From: Desulfurobacterium pacificum
GTDB lineage: Bacteria; Aquificota; Aquificia; Desulfurobacteriales; Desulfurobacteriaceae
Reading direction: 5' to 3'
DNA length: 64,000 nucleotides
Assembly: GCF_900182835.1 (NCBI RefSeq)
Contig: NZ_FXUB01000003.1
Location: forward strand, 124,001-188,000
Both the position numbers and the translations under genes were made by a program. Shown here in pieces: positions 37,127 through 43,541 of this stretch (the first letter of the stretch is position 1; each line of letters starts with the position of its first letter). Under the pieces are notes generated by a model. That model saw nothing but the letters and a program-made list of their open reading frames with translations. It was not told the DNA's origin and made no database searches.

Positions 37127-37528
37127 ATGGAATCTCTTAAAGGTAAATTGGTGTTCGTTCAAACAGCAGGAGGAGAAAGCGTTATACCATCTTCGGGTAT
37201 AATCGGCGTTGTGGAAGAGATAACTCCCGACTTTATCAGGCTCAAAGATGCGGGCGTTTTCGCTTTAGTTCCTACAACAAAAGGGGCGCAGGCTACAATT
37301 ATGCCTATGGACCCAACTGCAAACGAACCTGTAGAAGCTTACATTCTCAAAAGTCAGATTACTGCAATTGTTCCTGTTACTGATAAGTCAAGACTTAAAG
37401 AGTTTCACCAGCAGTTTAAGGCAGCAGCTGCAGGTATAGAACTTCCTTCACCTGGTTCTATTGACCTATCAAAGATTAAAGAGTTCCCCAAAGGGGGCGG
37501 AGATAAAGGAGGACTATCCATAACTTGA
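37127..37528 (+). CDS. Hypothetical protein (133 aa)
   Basis: Not recognised. Strand-rich first 100 residues (GKLVFVQTAGGESVIPSSGI; GVVEEITPDFIRLKDAGVFALVP) suggest a small beta barrel. A flexible Gly/Lys-rich tail (SKIKEFPKGGGDKGGLSIT) follows. It has no signal peptide or membrane helix. AGGAGG precedes the ATG. The stop overlaps the sensor kinase start (TTGA), so it may be co-translated with the NtrBC pair. Confidence 0.75.
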   Translation: MESLKGKLVFVQTAGGESVIPSSGIIGVVEEITPDFIRLKDAGVFALVPTTKGAQATIMPMDPTANEPVEAYILKSQITAIVPVTDKSRLKEFHQQFKAAAAGIELPSPGSIDLSKIKEFPKGGGDKGGLSIT

Positions 37529-38505
37529 GAGCGGAAGATATCCTCTTTTCTATACCCTTCCCCGTTGTTATTACCGACGGGGAGGGGAAAATCCTCCACG
37601 CCAACCAAAAGTTTGAAACGTTCGTTAACCGTTCCATAAAGTACCTTCAGGGTAAACCGCTATATTCCTTTTTCAAACATCAGGAAGACATAAAAAAGAA
37701 GATAGAGGAGTCTTACTCAAACTTAGTTGAAATCTTAGGATTTAAAACTGACGATTACTATCTGAACTTTGCACCTTTTTACGTTTCTTCCGTAGTAAAG
37801 GGAGTAATCGTTGTCGTTCAGCCCGTTGCGGAAAATCCGTTTGACGAGGATATTCTCCTTTTTCTGAAAGGGCTTTCTCACGAGATAAGGAATCCCCTCA
37901 GCGGCATTAAAGGAGCAGCTCGCCTCTTTCAAAAACTAAAGTGTTACGATGAAGAACTACTCAACGTTCTTATAGAAGAAACAGAGCGTATAGAAAGGCT
38001 CCTTAACAACGTAGTTAAAAGCTTTGACTTTTCTTCCTTAAACTACGAACCTACCAACGTTCACAAAATAATTCAGAACGTTGTGAACCTTTTCAGGGAG
38101 CGTATAGAAACGGAAGATATAGAAGTAGTTTACCTTTTTGACCCTTCCCTGCCTGAAATTTCTGTTGACCCCGACAGGATAACTCAGGTTCTTATAAACT
38201 TTTTTAAGAACGCCCTTGAAGCTGTAGAAACTTCGGAGATTAAAAAGATTACCGTTGAAACCGGCTACGCCATTCACCCTTCCGGCTTTATTTTTATAAG
38301 ATTAAAGGACACAGGCTGCGGTATGGATGAGCAGGAGTTAAAGCAGTTTTTCGTTCCGTTCTTTACGACCAAAGAGAAGGGAAGCGGTTTGGGAACGTTT
38401 ATCGCTTCGGAGATAGTGAAAAAACACGGCGGCGAAGTGAAAGTGAAAAGTGAGAAAGGTAAAGGGACGGAAGTAACAATCTACCTGCCGATGAAGGGGT
38501 ATTGA
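37525..38505 (+). CDS. NtrB-like PAS sensor histidine kinase
   Basis: 326 residues, soluble. An N-terminal PAS domain (FPVVITDGEGKILHANQKFE) is followed by the HisKA box GLSHEIRNPLSGIKGAARLF (His about 119), N box LINFFKNALEAVE, G1 DTGCGMDEQEL, F box FFVPFFTTKEKGSGLGTF and the G2 end. The lack of membrane helices and the HEIRNPL form point to the NtrB/GlnL group. It should phosphorylate the regulator whose gene overlaps its stop. The signal is unknown; no glnA or amtB is in the window. Confidence 0.93.
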   Translation: MRAEDILFSIPFPVVITDGEGKILHANQKFETFVNRSIKYLQGKPLYSFFKHQEDIKKKIEESYSNLVEILGFKTDDYYLNFAPFYVSSVVKGVIVVVQPVAENPFDEDILLFLKGLSHEIRNPLSGIKGAARLFQKLKCYDEELLNVLIEETERIERLLNNVVKSFDFSSLNYEPTNVHKIIQNVVNLFRERIETEDIEVVYLFDPSLPEISVDPDRITQVLINFFKNALEAVETSEIKKITVETGYAIHPSGFIFIRLKDTGCGMDEQELKQFFVPFFTTKEKGSGLGTFIASEIVKKHGGEVKVKSEKGKGTEVTIYLPMKGY

Positions 38506-39869
38506 TGGCAAAGATTTTGGTTGCAGACGATGAGAAGAGTATAAGGATTGTTCTGAGAAAATTCCTTACCTCTCAGGGACACGAAGTAGTTGAGGCTTCT
38601 AACGGTGAAGAAGCTCTTTCCATTTTAAAGTCCGGAAACGTTGACCTTGCGTTTGTTGACGTTAAGATGCCCGGAAAGAGCGGTATAGAGATTTTGGATG
38701 AGGTGAAAGACGTTCCAATCGTTATCGTTACGGCTTACGGAACGATGGACTTTACCATTTCCGCTATGGAAAAGGGAGCTGTTGATTACATAACGAAACC
38801 TTTTTCCTTTGAGGATATAGAGACGGTTCTCAAAAAGGTTCTCTCTGTGCCTTCTCAAGAGGTAGAGGAGGAAAAACCCATAGAGGATGAGATAGTTGGA
38901 ACAAGCAGAAAGATGCAGGAAGTTTTCAAACTTATAGGTAGGGTAGCCAAAAGCGATATAACCGTTTTAATAACCGGAGAGAGCGGAACGGGAAAAGAGC
39001 TTGTTGCTAAAGCGATTCACAGGTACTCCCACAGAAAGGATAAGCCATTTATTGCCGTTAACTGCGCAGCTTTGCCTCCAAACTTACTGGAAGCAGAACT
39101 GTTCGGTTATGAAAAAGGAGCTTTTACGGGAGCTACTTCCACAAAGAAAGGACTCTTTGAGCAGGCAGACGGCGGAACGCTGTTTTTAGACGAGATTGGA
39201 GAGCTTGCACCAGAACTCCAGGCAAAACTTTTAAGGGTTTTGCAGGAAAAGGAGATAAGAAGAGTAGGGGGAAGCAAAAACATAAAAGTTGACGTCAGGA
39301 TAGTCGCTGCTACGAACCGCAATTTAGAAGAAGAGGTAAAGAAGGGTAAGTTTAGAGAGGATTTGTTTTTCAGGCTTAACGTTGTTAACGTTGAAATCCC
39401 GCCGTTGAGAGAAAGGAGGGAGGATATTATTCCCCTTGCCCTTCACTTTATAAAGAAGTTTGCCAGAGAGTTCAAGCTTCCAGTAAAGGAACTTACGCCA
39501 GAAGCGGTAGAGTGGCTTGTTAACTACGATTTTCCGGGAAACGTAAGAGAACTTGAAAATATGATTTTGAGAGCTATGGTTGTCTCTCCCGTTGACGTTA
39601 TAGACGTTTCCGACCTGAAACCTTCTGCCGTTATGCCGTCTTCTCCTTCTTTTGAAGAGGCGATACGTAACTTTGTCGTTGATATCTTCACCGTTGAACA
39701 AAAGGAGAAGAACAACCTTTACGACCTTGTTGTTAAAGCTGCTGAAAGGATTTTAATCTCGGAAGTGTTAAAGTTCTGTAACTTCAATCAGGTTAAAGCG
39801 GCGAAAGTTTTAGGTATTCATAGGAACACTTTGAGAAAGAAGATAAAAGAGTTGGGGATAGGGAAGTAA
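38505..39869 (+). CDS. NtrC-like sigma-54-dependent response regulator
   Basis: 454 residues. A receiver domain (ILVADDEKSIR; acceptor Asp in LAFVDVKMPGKSG; Lys in YITKPFSFED) precedes the AAA+ domain with Walker A TGESGTGKELVAKAIH, the sigma-54 contact loop EKGAFTGATS and Walker B GGTLFLDEIGEL. A Fis-type helix-turn-helix closes (NQVKAAKVLGIHRNTLRKKI). It implies sigma-54 (rpoN) elsewhere in the genome. ATG 38505 is preferred over TTG 38502. Confidence 0.95.
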   Translation: MAKILVADDEKSIRIVLRKFLTSQGHEVVEASNGEEALSILKSGNVDLAFVDVKMPGKSGIEILDEVKDVPIVIVTAYGTMDFTISAMEKGAVDYITKPFSFEDIETVLKKVLSVPSQEVEEEKPIEDEIVGTSRKMQEVFKLIGRVAKSDITVLITGESGTGKELVAKAIHRYSHRKDKPFIAVNCAALPPNLLEAELFGYEKGAFTGATSTKKGLFEQADGGTLFLDEIGELAPELQAKLLRVLQEKEIRRVGGSKNIKVDVRIVAATNRNLEEEVKKGKFREDLFFRLNVVNVEIPPLRERREDIIPLALHFIKKFAREFKLPVKELTPEAVEWLVNYDFPGNVRELENMILRAMVVSPVDVIDVSDLKPSAVMPSSPSFEEAIRNFVVDIFTVEQKEKNNLYDLVVKAAERILISEVLKFCNFNQVKAAKVLGIHRNTLRKKIKELGIGK

Positions 39870-39892: not shown

Positions 39893-39906
39893 TTGATTTT
39901 TATCAA
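39893..39906. promoter_or_regulatory. FNR/CRP-family operator (TTGAT-N4-ATCAA)
   Basis: A perfect match to the FNR consensus, TTGAT-TTTT-ATCAA, lies 7 bases upstream of a good -35 box. Its centre is about 47 bases before the expected transcription start, near the usual activating position of -41.5. It would put the ferredoxin gene under redox or oxygen control. Confidence 0.65.
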
Positions 39907-39983: not shown

Positions 39984-40661
39984 ATGAAGGAAGGGGATTT
40001 CGCAGAAAAGAAAAGTTTAATTCTCTGTCAGGACGGTTCTCCTTTTATTCCTTACTATCCTGCCGGAATCAATACCGATAAGTGTACAGGGTGCGGTGAG
40101 TGTGTGAAGGTCTGTCCGCAGAACTGCATTGAACTTAAAGAGCAGAACGGTAAGTTGGTAGCTGTCATCGTTGATATGGAGTCCTGTATAGGCGACGGTA
40201 TGTGCAGGCTTGTCTGCCCGGAAGATGCCTTTACCTGAGGCGTTTCCTGCTCCGGTTCGGGGAAGGTAGAGCTTTCAGAAGAGAATATCCTTTGCGATGA
40301 GAACGGCAACTACGCTTACCTTACTTTTGGCGGTAAACTTTACACCCCTGCTTATCTTCAGAATATTGATAGGAATTTGTGCGAGAACTGCGAGAAGTGT
40401 CTTGAAATGTGCGAAACGAGAGGACTTGATGAGGAGGGAAACGTAATTCCGGAGTTACCTGAGGTCTGCAACGGTTGTGGACATTGCGTTAACGTTTGCC
40501 CTGCAAAAGGTATAGAGGCTAAGCCCATAAGCATTAAAGAGATGATAGAACGGTTCAGACGCTGGAAAAAGTCTCAATCGCATATAGACAGCGTTATATT
40601 GAGCTTACTTGAAATTTCTTCAAGCGGTGCGCTTCTTTTCAGCATGTTCGCTGCTTCGTGA
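39984..40661 (+). CDS. Multi-cluster 4Fe-4S ferredoxin with in-frame TGA (possible selenoprotein)
   Basis: Read through TGA 40236-40238, one open frame gives about 225 residues. Before the TGA: CTGCGECVKVCPQNC and CIGDGMCRLVCPEDAFT, a 4Fe-4S pair with one altered motif. The TGA falls at residue 85 in T-(TGA)-GVSC. After it the frame continues with Cys-bearing sequence and another cluster pair, CENCEKCLEMC and CNGCGHCVNVCPAKG. A small hairpin with a GU-containing loop follows the TGA at the distance expected of a bacterial SECIS. The alternative is a simple nonsense mutation. The ATG at 39984 follows GGAAGG; ATG 39972 is also in frame. The 3' end overlaps the convergent gene by 88 bases. Confidence 0.6.
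40246..40266 (+). promoter_or_regulatory. Candidate bSECIS hairpin
   Basis: Counting the U of the TGA as 1, bases 11-31 fold as CCU-G-CUCCG, loop GUU, CGGGG-A-AGG: three pairs, a G-A mismatch, then five pairs. The GU in the loop lies at 20-21, near the SelB-contact bases at 23-24 in E. coli fdhF. Confidence 0.4.
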
Positions 40662-41398
40662 AGCGTTATTGGTCGTTTGGGGTTTAAGGATAGGTGGAGA
40701 CAACGGGGAGCTTCTATAAAGTTTGATAAGGGAATGAGTACTGAGGGCGGTAGTTTCCCCTGCAGTGAAGATATGAGCTGCTTTTTGAACGTTCTTACGT
40801 CTTCCCCTGCTAATTCGGCTTGCTTTCTTAAAAAGCCTTTTACTAATCCTTGGTCTCTATAGGTAAGTTCTAACTTTTTAAGTTTTAGGCGCGATGGTGT
40901 AGAAAGGTTCCCCTGTAGTTGAACGCCCAAGTTAATACTTCCTAAGTCTTTACCTTCTGCAGATAGGGATAGATTAACGTTATTTCCTGATATCAGGTAG
41001 ATAATCGCAGCGTTTATTTTTACTTTGTTTCTATGGTAATCGGTGAGTGAGAGCATTTCTTTCATATAGGGGAGGTTTGAGGAAAGAGTTGCATCAGCTA
41101 TAGATACGGAGAGTGAGGGGGGGATTTTGGAAACGCTGAAAGGTAGGTCAATTTTAATTTTTCCTATCTCTGCCGAGTAGTTCTGGTAGGAGAATTTAAG
41201 GTCGTCTATCGTAATTTCGTTCTTTATCAGTGAGTAATTGATTTTTTTGTAGGAAACGCTTCCGGGGAATTTGTCTAAGGCGTGGTTTACTTTGTTCTGG
41301 ATTTCGTACTTTATCAGCGTTTGGAGGGCGAAGTAGGAAGATATTAAAGCTCCTGCAAAGAGCAGGAGCGTGATTATTAGCCTTTCTTTTTTACTCAT
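40574..41398 (-). CDS. AsmA/DUF748-like inner-membrane-anchored periplasmic protein
   Basis: 274 residues with one N-terminal membrane helix (LIITLLLFAGALISSYFAL) and a periplasmic part. The first half is beta-rich (KINYSLIKNEITIDDLKFSY; GKIKIDLPFSV), as in AsmA-like lipid-transport proteins, and the second half is helical. The call is by pattern only. It overlaps the hemE end by 4 bases. A GGGGGGGATTTT repeat copy (41117-41128) codes for KIPPSLS within it. The 3' end overlaps the ferredoxin gene. Confidence 0.55.
   Translation of the reverse strand: MSKKERLIITLLLFAGALISSYFALQTLIKYEIQNKVNHALDKFPGSVSYKKINYSLIKNEITIDDLKFSYQNYSAEIGKIKIDLPFSVSKIPPSLSVSIADATLSSNLPYMKEMLSLTDYHRNKVKINAAIIYLISGNNVNLSLSAEGKDLGSINLGVQLQGNLSTPSRLKLKKLELTYRDQGLVKGFLRKQAELAGEDVRTFKKQLISSLQGKLPPSVLIPLSNFIEAPRCLHLSLNPKRPITLHEAANMLKRSAPLEEISSKLNITLSICD
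41111..41128 (+). repeat. Dispersed G-tract/GATTTT repeat, copy in the AsmA-like gene
   Basis: GAGTGAGGGGGGGATTTT, antisense to the gene. Confidence 0.55.
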
Positions 41399-42444
41399 TG
41401 TTCTCTTAGTTCTCTGCTGATTTTGTGGACTGTGTCAACTAAGAATTTAGCCTTTTTAGGGTCTGTTGGGGGCAGGATGCCGTGTCCTAAGTTGAAGATA
41501 TGTCCGCGCGCCTTTTGGGCGGAGGTGAGGATTTTTCTTACCTGCTTTTCAATTAATTCCTCACTGGCAAACAGCATTACCGGGTCAAGGTTGCCCTGTA
41601 TAGATTTATCAATTATCTGAAGAGCTTTGTCTATTTCTGTTTTCCAGTCAAGCCCTATTACATCAACGTTAAGCCTGTTGTTTACCTCTAACAGGTGTCC
41701 TGCGTTTACTCCAAAGTGAATTATCGGCGTCTCCGGGTGTCTTTTCTTTAGTTCGTTTACGATTTTTTCCGTATATGAAAAAACATATCTTTCGTAGTCG
41801 TCTCTGGACAGCACACCTATCCATGAGTCAAAAATCTGGACTAAGTCAACGCCTGCTTTTATCTGAGCGGATAAGTACTCTATCACTGTTTGAGTTAACT
41901 TTGTCATTAAAGTATTCCATAGCTTCTCATCGTTCCACATGGTTGATTTTGCAGCTATGTAGTTCTTTGAGCTTCCGCCTTCCAATATGTAGCTTGCCAG
42001 GGTGAACGGCGCGCCGGAAAAACCGATTAGCGGTCTGTCTGTTAACTTTTCTTTTATTAATTGAATGGTTTCTAATACGTAGGGTAGGTCTTTTTCAGGT
42101 TCGGGGATTTTTAGTCTTTGAGCGTCTTCTACAGTTTCTACTTTTGGTTCTAAAACTGGTCCTTTACCTTCAACGAAAGAAACGTTTATTCCCATCTTTT
42201 CGACGGGAACTAAGATATCGGAAAAGAGAATAGCAGCGTCAACGCCGATTTCATCTATCGGAATAAGCGTTACCTCGGCGGCTAACTCAGGATTTTTGCA
42301 CAAATCCATAAAGCTTCCTGCTTTCTCTCTGATTTTTCTATAACGTTCTGAGTACCTTCCAGCCTGCCTCATTATCCATATAGGCGTGTATTCAGTTTTT
42401 TCTCCTCTTGCAGCTTTTAGAATTGGGTGGTTTTTTAAATCCAT
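41395..42444 (-). CDS. hemE: Uroporphyrinogen decarboxylase
   Basis: 349 residues from [31 protein letters not shown], the family opening with the substrate-binding Arg pair. Other marks are DAAILFSDILVPVEKMG, GFSGAPFTLASYILEGG and the GHGILPPTDP end. It converts uroporphyrinogen III to coproporphyrinogen III. The start at 42444 overlaps the radical SAM stop (TAATG); the open frame to 42492 lies within that gene. Confidence 0.96.
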   Translation of the reverse strand: MDLKNHPILKAARGEKTEYTPIWIMRQAGRYSERYRKIREKAGSFMDLCKNPELAAEVTLIPIDEIGVDAAILFSDILVPVEKMGINVSFVEGKGPVLEPKVETVEDAQRLKIPEPEKDLPYVLETIQLIKEKLTDRPLIGFSGAPFTLASYILEGGSSKNYIAAKSTMWNDEKLWNTLMTKLTQTVIEYLSAQIKAGVDLVQIFDSWIGVLSRDDYERYVFSYTEKIVNELKKRHPETPIIHFGVNAGHLLEVNNRLNVDVIGLDWKTEIDKALQIIDKSIQGNLDPVMLFASEELIEKQVRKILTSAQKARGHIFNLGHGILPPTDPKKAKFLVDTVHKISRELREQ

Positions 42445-43541
42445 TACGCTTCTCCCTGCTGTTTTTTCATTCTTATTGGAACGTATCTGCATATGGGGTC
42501 TTCCTGCATATAATCACCGTATTCCCAGTATGCCCTTACTCTACAACCGTTGCATATCTTAACGTATTCGCAAACACCGCACCTTCCTTTGTATTCTTCA
42601 ATTTTTCTCATGTCCTGCATGATTTTTGATTCAAACCACGCTTTATCGAATGGCACGTCAAAAACGTTTATATCGGATATCGGGAAGTAGCTGCAGGGTC
42701 TTAACCAGCCGTGGCAATCTATGTAGGCGATGGACTGCCCTGCTACACAACCTTTACCACCGCCCGTTCCGAATACCAAGTTGCGCCTTTTTAGGTCAAG
42801 TCCATCTCTTTTGGCGTTCTGGTTAAAGATTCTGTAATAGTGAGGGGCGCACGTTGGACGGACTAAGATTGTATTGTCGCCTTTCAGAATTAGCTCTTTT
42901 TCCAACTCGTAGTGCCAGTTTAGCCAGTATTCTGCTTCTTCTGCATTTAAGAGTTCTGCGTTTGCTTCTTCTCCCCTTCCAACGGGAAGAACGATAAACA
43001 TATACCAGGCTTTAGCTCCTAACTCTCTTGCTTTTTTGTAAACGTTGGGGATGTCAAAGGCGTTTCGCTTTGTGAAAGAAGAGTTTATAAGAAACGGAAT
43101 GTCGTACTTTTTGAAGAGTTCAATGGCGTTCATTACGCCTTCAAACGCACCGGGTTGCTTCCTGAAATCATCGTGTATTTCGGGTGTTGAGCCATCAAGA
43201 GAAAGGGATACCATTCTTATTCCGGTTCTTTTCATCTCTTTGCAAACTTCGTCGTCAACTAACGTTCCGTTTGTTGCCATGCACATTCTAAAGCCTTTTT
43301 CCGTTCCGTAGGCTGCTAAATCCCATACATCGTCTCTTAAAAGGGGTTCGCCGCCTGTCAGGACGATTGTTGGTTTGGCGATTTTCTCTATGTCATCCAT
43401 CAACTTTTTTCCATCTTCAAGTGAAAAATCACCCTGTTCCGATTCCATCGTTGAAGCGGAACGGCAGTGGATGCAGTTTAAATTGCACCTTCTCGTTATC
43501 TCCCAGGCTATCCATTTGGGCAGAAATTCATTCTTTTCCAT
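42444..43541 (-). CDS. Radical SAM/SPASM protein, AhbD/NirJ-like (heme synthesis)
   Basis: 365 residues. The radical SAM cluster site is CNLNCIHC, with [12 protein letters not shown] after it. The C-terminal SPASM-type region has [20 protein letters not shown] and [19 protein letters not shown], giving seven or more Cys. AhbD/NirJ enzymes remodel porphyrin side chains (heme b from Fe-coproporphyrin, or heme d1). Coupling to hemE supports tetrapyrrole work, such as an oxygen-independent last step. Other SPASM peptide-modifying enzymes share the layout, so the exact reaction is not settled. Confidence 0.75.

Follow-up and report, generated by a model that had tools for sequence, protein, structure and literature searches.

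Iron-sulfur proteins are represented among known prokaryotic selenoproteins by HdrA, HgcB, a GlpC-like protein and NF005503, the Fe-S members of a 2026 inventory of 119 families (PMC13188914, Table 1). The nif-specific ferredoxin III, FdxB (TIGR02936), has a single module without selenocysteine (Sec) and requires two complete four-Cys motifs. Here we describe a gene of Desulfurobacterium pacificum, found in a 64,000-nucleotide stretch of DNA that we analysed as a whole and call the window. Its predicted product, which we term selenoferredoxin, resembles FdxB in the lead-in G..(W/F)xPxY..I(D/N) before the first cluster motif, and differs in having two tandem modules and a Sec/Cys linker. Its N-terminal module fails the FdxB requirement, with Asp71 in motif 2. 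TIGR02936 matches the window protein in two stretches that together reach 70.7 bits, under the curated cut-off of 80.55, and, in contrast to FdxB, no nif genes adjoin selenoferredoxin in the loci seen. The features of the gene and its product are as follows.

39984-40661, plus strand: selenoferredoxin gene, 225 amino acids plus stop, with the TGA at 40236-40238 read as Sec.
40017-40223, plus strand: N-terminal FdxB-like dicluster module, with DGxPFxPxY..IN, C34-x2-C37-x2-C40-x3-C44, C48, and C68-x2-D71-x2-C74-x3-C78; assigned from the TIGR02936 match at residues 15-84, the FdxB alignment and homology to the C-terminal module.
40236-40238, plus strand: putative Sec codon UGA (U85).
40248-40250, plus strand: C89, invariant in the alignment, candidate resolving partner of U85 (UGxxC).
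40302-40526, plus strand: second FdxB-like module, with (N)GNYAYLTxGGxLYTPxY..I, C133-x2-C136-x2-C139-x3-C143, and C162-x2-C165-x2-C168-x3-C172; assigned by hhalign to the N half.

We hold with high confidence that this locus encodes a selenoprotein built of tandem modules. That confidence covers Sec coding and architecture, and excludes the redox-pair and regulator steps proposed below; it derives from sequence, and Sec incorporation itself is inferred, without mass spectrometry or 75Se labelling. The TGA at 40236-40238 is the sole interruption of the frame from 39984 to 40658, which yields 225 residues, with U85, when TGA is translated as U. The terminal stop is also TGA (40659-40661). Translation commences probably at ATG 39984, directly after AAGG; ATG 39972 is an alternative in-frame start. 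An earlier note on this DNA had stated that the frame runs on past the TGA without a further internal stop, which our translation confirms, and had suggested a possible selenoprotein. The conserved TGA, a SECIS-type hairpin that the note had not included, and the Sec machinery of the genome all support that suggestion. The note's count of four Cys sets, two on each side of the TGA, also holds, but the second is not a full Cys set: it reads CxxDxxCxxxCP (CIGDGxCxxxCP), in which an invariant Asp71 replaces the second cluster Cys. Two further cysteines, C48 and C89, lie outside these sets and are, like U85 and D71, invariant in the orthologue alignment. U85 and C89 fall in the linker after the N-terminal module, as U85-G-x-x-C89.

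The two halves of the protein align with each other at a probability of 97% (E 5e-10, hhalign). Part of this score comes from Cys motifs general to such ferredoxins, the lead-in being the more specific part. The N half retrieves genes annotated as fdxB in Bradyrhizobium and Rhizobium. Because the halves are mutually alignable and share with FdxB a common lead-in, we interpret selenoferredoxin as a tandemly duplicated FdxB-like (nif-ferredoxin-III) dicluster module. An AlphaFold model has a moderate pLDDT of 64, with values below 50 at residues 87-94, and Foldseek returned only generic ferredoxin matches to it (FwdF, HdrA, PsaC), with low TM over the whole protein. Given the low confidence at these residues and the generic matches, we make no structural claim about the contacts of U85.

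When 61 genomes were searched at the protein level, 18 of them, all from the same family, yielded full-length orthologues, every one with an internal TGA; searching 136 Aquificota genomes with a profile recovered the same 18. The 19 orthologues come from these 18 genomes, all of the hot-vent family Desulfurobacteriaceae and including Thermovibrio ammonificans; they span six genera and are about 55-84% identical to the window protein. The TGA column is identical in all 19 aligned sequences, far more often than chance would give, with no other codon there and never Trp or Arg. The strength of purifying selection is the same before and after this codon (pN/pS 0.23 and 0.25, respectively), and amino-acid identities are likewise equal, at 0.68 and 0.67. 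One metagenome-assembled genome (G013) has two copies, on contigs 188 and 129 (L003, L031), both with the TGA; these could be either paralogues or two strains. No version with Cys at the Sec position was found in the profile search of 136 Aquificota genomes, and neither a Cys version nor any other true relative appeared in a pattern scan of 84,980 species, a scan that relies on a pair of conserved peptides and may overlook remote relatives. A match from Synechococcales (L093, 28%) was judged to be a generic ferredoxin. The family thus appears, as far as these searches reach, to be restricted to Desulfurobacteriaceae. Cys homologues are a common supporting feature of bacterial selenoproteins and not a defining one; the usual Sec/Cys pairing comparison is thus absent here. 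With no Cys version found, Sec would seem hard to replace in this protein.

Immediately 3' of the TGA lies a candidate recognition element.

40239-40266, plus strand: bSECIS-type hairpin, with a 15-nt spacer including the 5' arm, an inner stem of CTCC (40250-40253) and GGGG (40259-40262), and a loop GGTTC (40254-40258) with an invariant G at its second position.

A five-base-loop hairpin occurs 15 or 18 nt 3' of the TGA in all 19 orthologues, its inner four pairs formed and its second loop base G in every case; all 19 thereby satisfy the bSECIS criterion that a directly downstream hairpin carry G at the first or second position of its loop. The entire hairpin is shifted one codon closer to the TGA in three orthologues (L001, L002 and L004), moving as a unit, and pair 5 in L004 shows compensation, G-C having replaced C-G. 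Codons within the hairpin are frozen (Ser TCC in 19/19 and 16/17, Glu GAG in 17/17); mean codon diversity elsewhere in the gene is 0.64 for Ser columns and 0.44 for Glu columns. Across orthologues, folding is more stable than in protein-preserving codon shuffles (mean z -2.2). Taken alone, the window hairpin does not stand out from dinucleotide shuffles (z -0.7), and support for it therefore comes from the alignment. Comparing the region with Rfam yielded nothing beyond chance matches.

Comparable elements accompany other Sec codons in this bacterial family. In two relatives FdhA-Sec has a loop of AGTTT or GGTCT, placed equally far from the TGA, and the SelD-Sec loop in relatives is mostly GGTC. 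SelD-Sec and FdhA-Sec are unrelated to selenoferredoxin as proteins, and resemble it in SECIS loop type and distance. This likeness is what one shared SelB would require, and by analogy the three are presumably recognised by the same SelB.

The genome of the window encodes the machinery to use such an element. A tRNA-Sec (79.7 bits; C3:78891-78981) has the anticodon TCA, read in its sequence, and SelB (432 bits), SelA (618 bits) and SelD (369 bits) are present, the last itself with one in-frame TGA. The earlier note had proposed two sequence checks, namely Sec or Cys rather than Trp or Arg in orthologues, and selA, selB, selC and selD in the genome; the uniform TGA column and the complete gene set satisfy both. 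tRNA-Sec has been reported for T. ammonificans and D. thermolithotrophum (PMC4227106). No tRNA-Sec scored over the cut-off in G017 and no SelB in G018, absences that are perhaps assembly gaps. SelD with Sec (VRASGUGAKLS) occurs in all 13 Desulfurobacteriaceae genomes examined (L121-L133), including those of a genus, g7, that lacks selenoferredoxin. This genus keeps the Sec machinery as well, and the presence of selenoferredoxin therefore does not track that machinery; no Fdh match was found in this genus either.

These data bear directly on other ways to read the TGA. Had the lone TGA been seen in one genome only, a recent nonsense mutation or pseudogene would look alike, but the same codon in 19 orthologues of six genera, the lack of other internal stops and the purifying selection downstream of it are incompatible with such decay. 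With TGA, frame and selection persisting over six genera, this alternative fails, and we give it the least credence of any reading considered. The TGA could instead be a true stop, so that one mRNA would yield two ferredoxins, a dicluster one from the N-terminal half and another from the C-terminal half; in favour of this, the two modules are homologous and could fold independently of each other. This is highly improbable, since the first listed in-frame start beyond the TGA is TTG 40377, 46 codons on, yet the codons between the two, C89 and GNYAYLT among them, are also conserved, which a separate downstream protein does not account for. Moreover, no orthologue has TAA or TAG in place of this TGA, and a SECIS is present. 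Insertion of another amino acid, by Trp readthrough or a change of code, is more improbable still: it has no specific support, TGA also ends the gene (40659), and the complete Sec machinery and SECIS are present. We regard a pseudogene, Trp readthrough and two separate proteins as effectively excluded. Strong comparative evidence thus favours Sec coding, in which the UGA would be decoded by SelB and tRNA-Sec under the direction of the hairpin just 3' of it, a step that is unmeasured.

What the selenium does is less certain. The two tandem modules may hold up to four clusters and serve as an electron wire, cluster number and wire role both being inferred. By ferredoxin precedent, the cluster that includes Asp71 could be an Asp-type [4Fe-4S] or a [3Fe-4S] cluster. 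U85 and C89 may form a selenol/thiol redox pair in the linker, a chemistry that we infer and consider about evenly poised between right and wrong. Such a pair would take single electrons from the clusters and pass two to a substrate or partner of disulfide, sulfur/selenium or nitrogen-oxide type. Alternatively, the protein may be a selenoprotein in which the selenium of U85 is a ligand to an Fe-S cluster, occupying the site left open in the Asp71-type cluster, or binds substrate at that cluster. Asp-for-Cys clusters in known ferredoxins have a labile fourth iron, which favours this possibility, as do the invariance of Asp71 in place of Cys, the position of U85 only 7 residues past the cluster residue Cys78, and the additional invariant Cys48. 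On the other hand, C89 is just as invariant, as fits a U/C pair, and structural evidence for ligation is lacking, with pLDDT low at 87-94. We consider selenium ligation unlikely but worth keeping in view: if true, it would provide a biological Se-ligated Fe-S catalytic centre at a site-differentiated (Asp-type) cluster in anaerobic vent autotrophs.

Beyond the coding sequence, the conserved surroundings of selenoferredoxin offer a possible view of its regulation.

37525-38505, beside the NtrC-like regulator: PAS histidine kinase, present in 15/17 loci.
38502-39869, plus strand: NtrC-like sigma-54 response regulator, retained upstream of the gene in 16/17 loci.
39893-39906, plus strand: FNR/CRP-type palindrome TTGATTTTTATCAA, possible regulator site, a perfect 10/10 match to TTGAYN4RTCAA.

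In 11 of 18 orthologues, a perfect palindrome of the FNR type sits 84-119 bp upstream of the start (-84 to -119). Genome-wide, the pattern shows no enrichment, with 7 sites compared with 14 for its backward control, so that only its conserved position ahead of the gene supports an FNR-type site. A search of the genome turned up one CRP-type regulator, with ETVSR in its recognition helix, as in FNR, and no N-terminal Cys cluster was seen in its sequence. Expression of selenoferredoxin is probably under an FNR/DNR-type regulator, an inference from the conserved box, and its control by this CRP-type regulator is a hypothesis. In genus g7, the selenoferredoxin gene is absent and leuC (named from sequence) comes after the NtrC gene instead.

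Facing selenoferredoxin in most loci are a gene of unknown function, hemE and a radical-SAM gene, as named from the sequences read. A conserved minus-strand gene at 40574-41398 of the window encodes 274 amino acids with an N-terminal hydrophobic segment and overlaps the 3' end of selenoferredoxin. The conserved neighbourhood at 41395-43541 comprises hemE and the radical-SAM gene, AhbC/AhbD- or NirJ-like by eye. A link to haem synthesis is possible.

The earlier note knew of no described selenoprotein of this layout, a statement that remains valid within the open literature. Neither the architecture nor the motif occurs in the 119-family inventory (PMC13188914, Table 1); no cut-off of NCBIfam release 20 is reached by the window protein among its best matches; and the main text of the deep-Sep paper does not mention a ferredoxin. 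Judged by its sequence and within that literature, selenoferredoxin is very probably an undescribed family of selenium-containing iron-sulfur proteins. It probably accounts for a gene that automatic annotation would split in the Desulfurobacteriaceae genomes carrying it. T. ammonificans is cultured, which makes both Sec incorporation and selenium chemistry beside Fe-S clusters directly testable.

Comparison with individual families places selenoferredoxin apart from each of them. The Sec form of the mercury-methylation ferredoxin HgcB (NF040864, GVGU) is also dicluster and likewise places a chalcogen residue beyond its second cluster motif, but it has one module and another Sec motif, and its match to residues 29-90 is weak (45.7 bits against a cut-off of 99). 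NF005503, the Fe-S cluster domain-containing selenoprotein with a UxxC motif, is likewise a Sec-containing Fe-S family (PMC13188914, Table 1); it matches only residues 29-58 (36 bits against a cut-off of 252), and the motif of selenoferredoxin is UxxxC. The nearest solved structures by sequence are the selenoprotein HdrA (CxxU) and the methanogen polyferredoxins MvhB/FwdF, which are chains of ferredoxin domains. Their Fer4 similarity to selenoferredoxin is local only, HdrA is far larger, and there is no common Sec site. Selenoferredoxin would add to the current inventory an architecture that it lacks, in which tandem ferredoxin modules are combined with a Sec/Cys linker.
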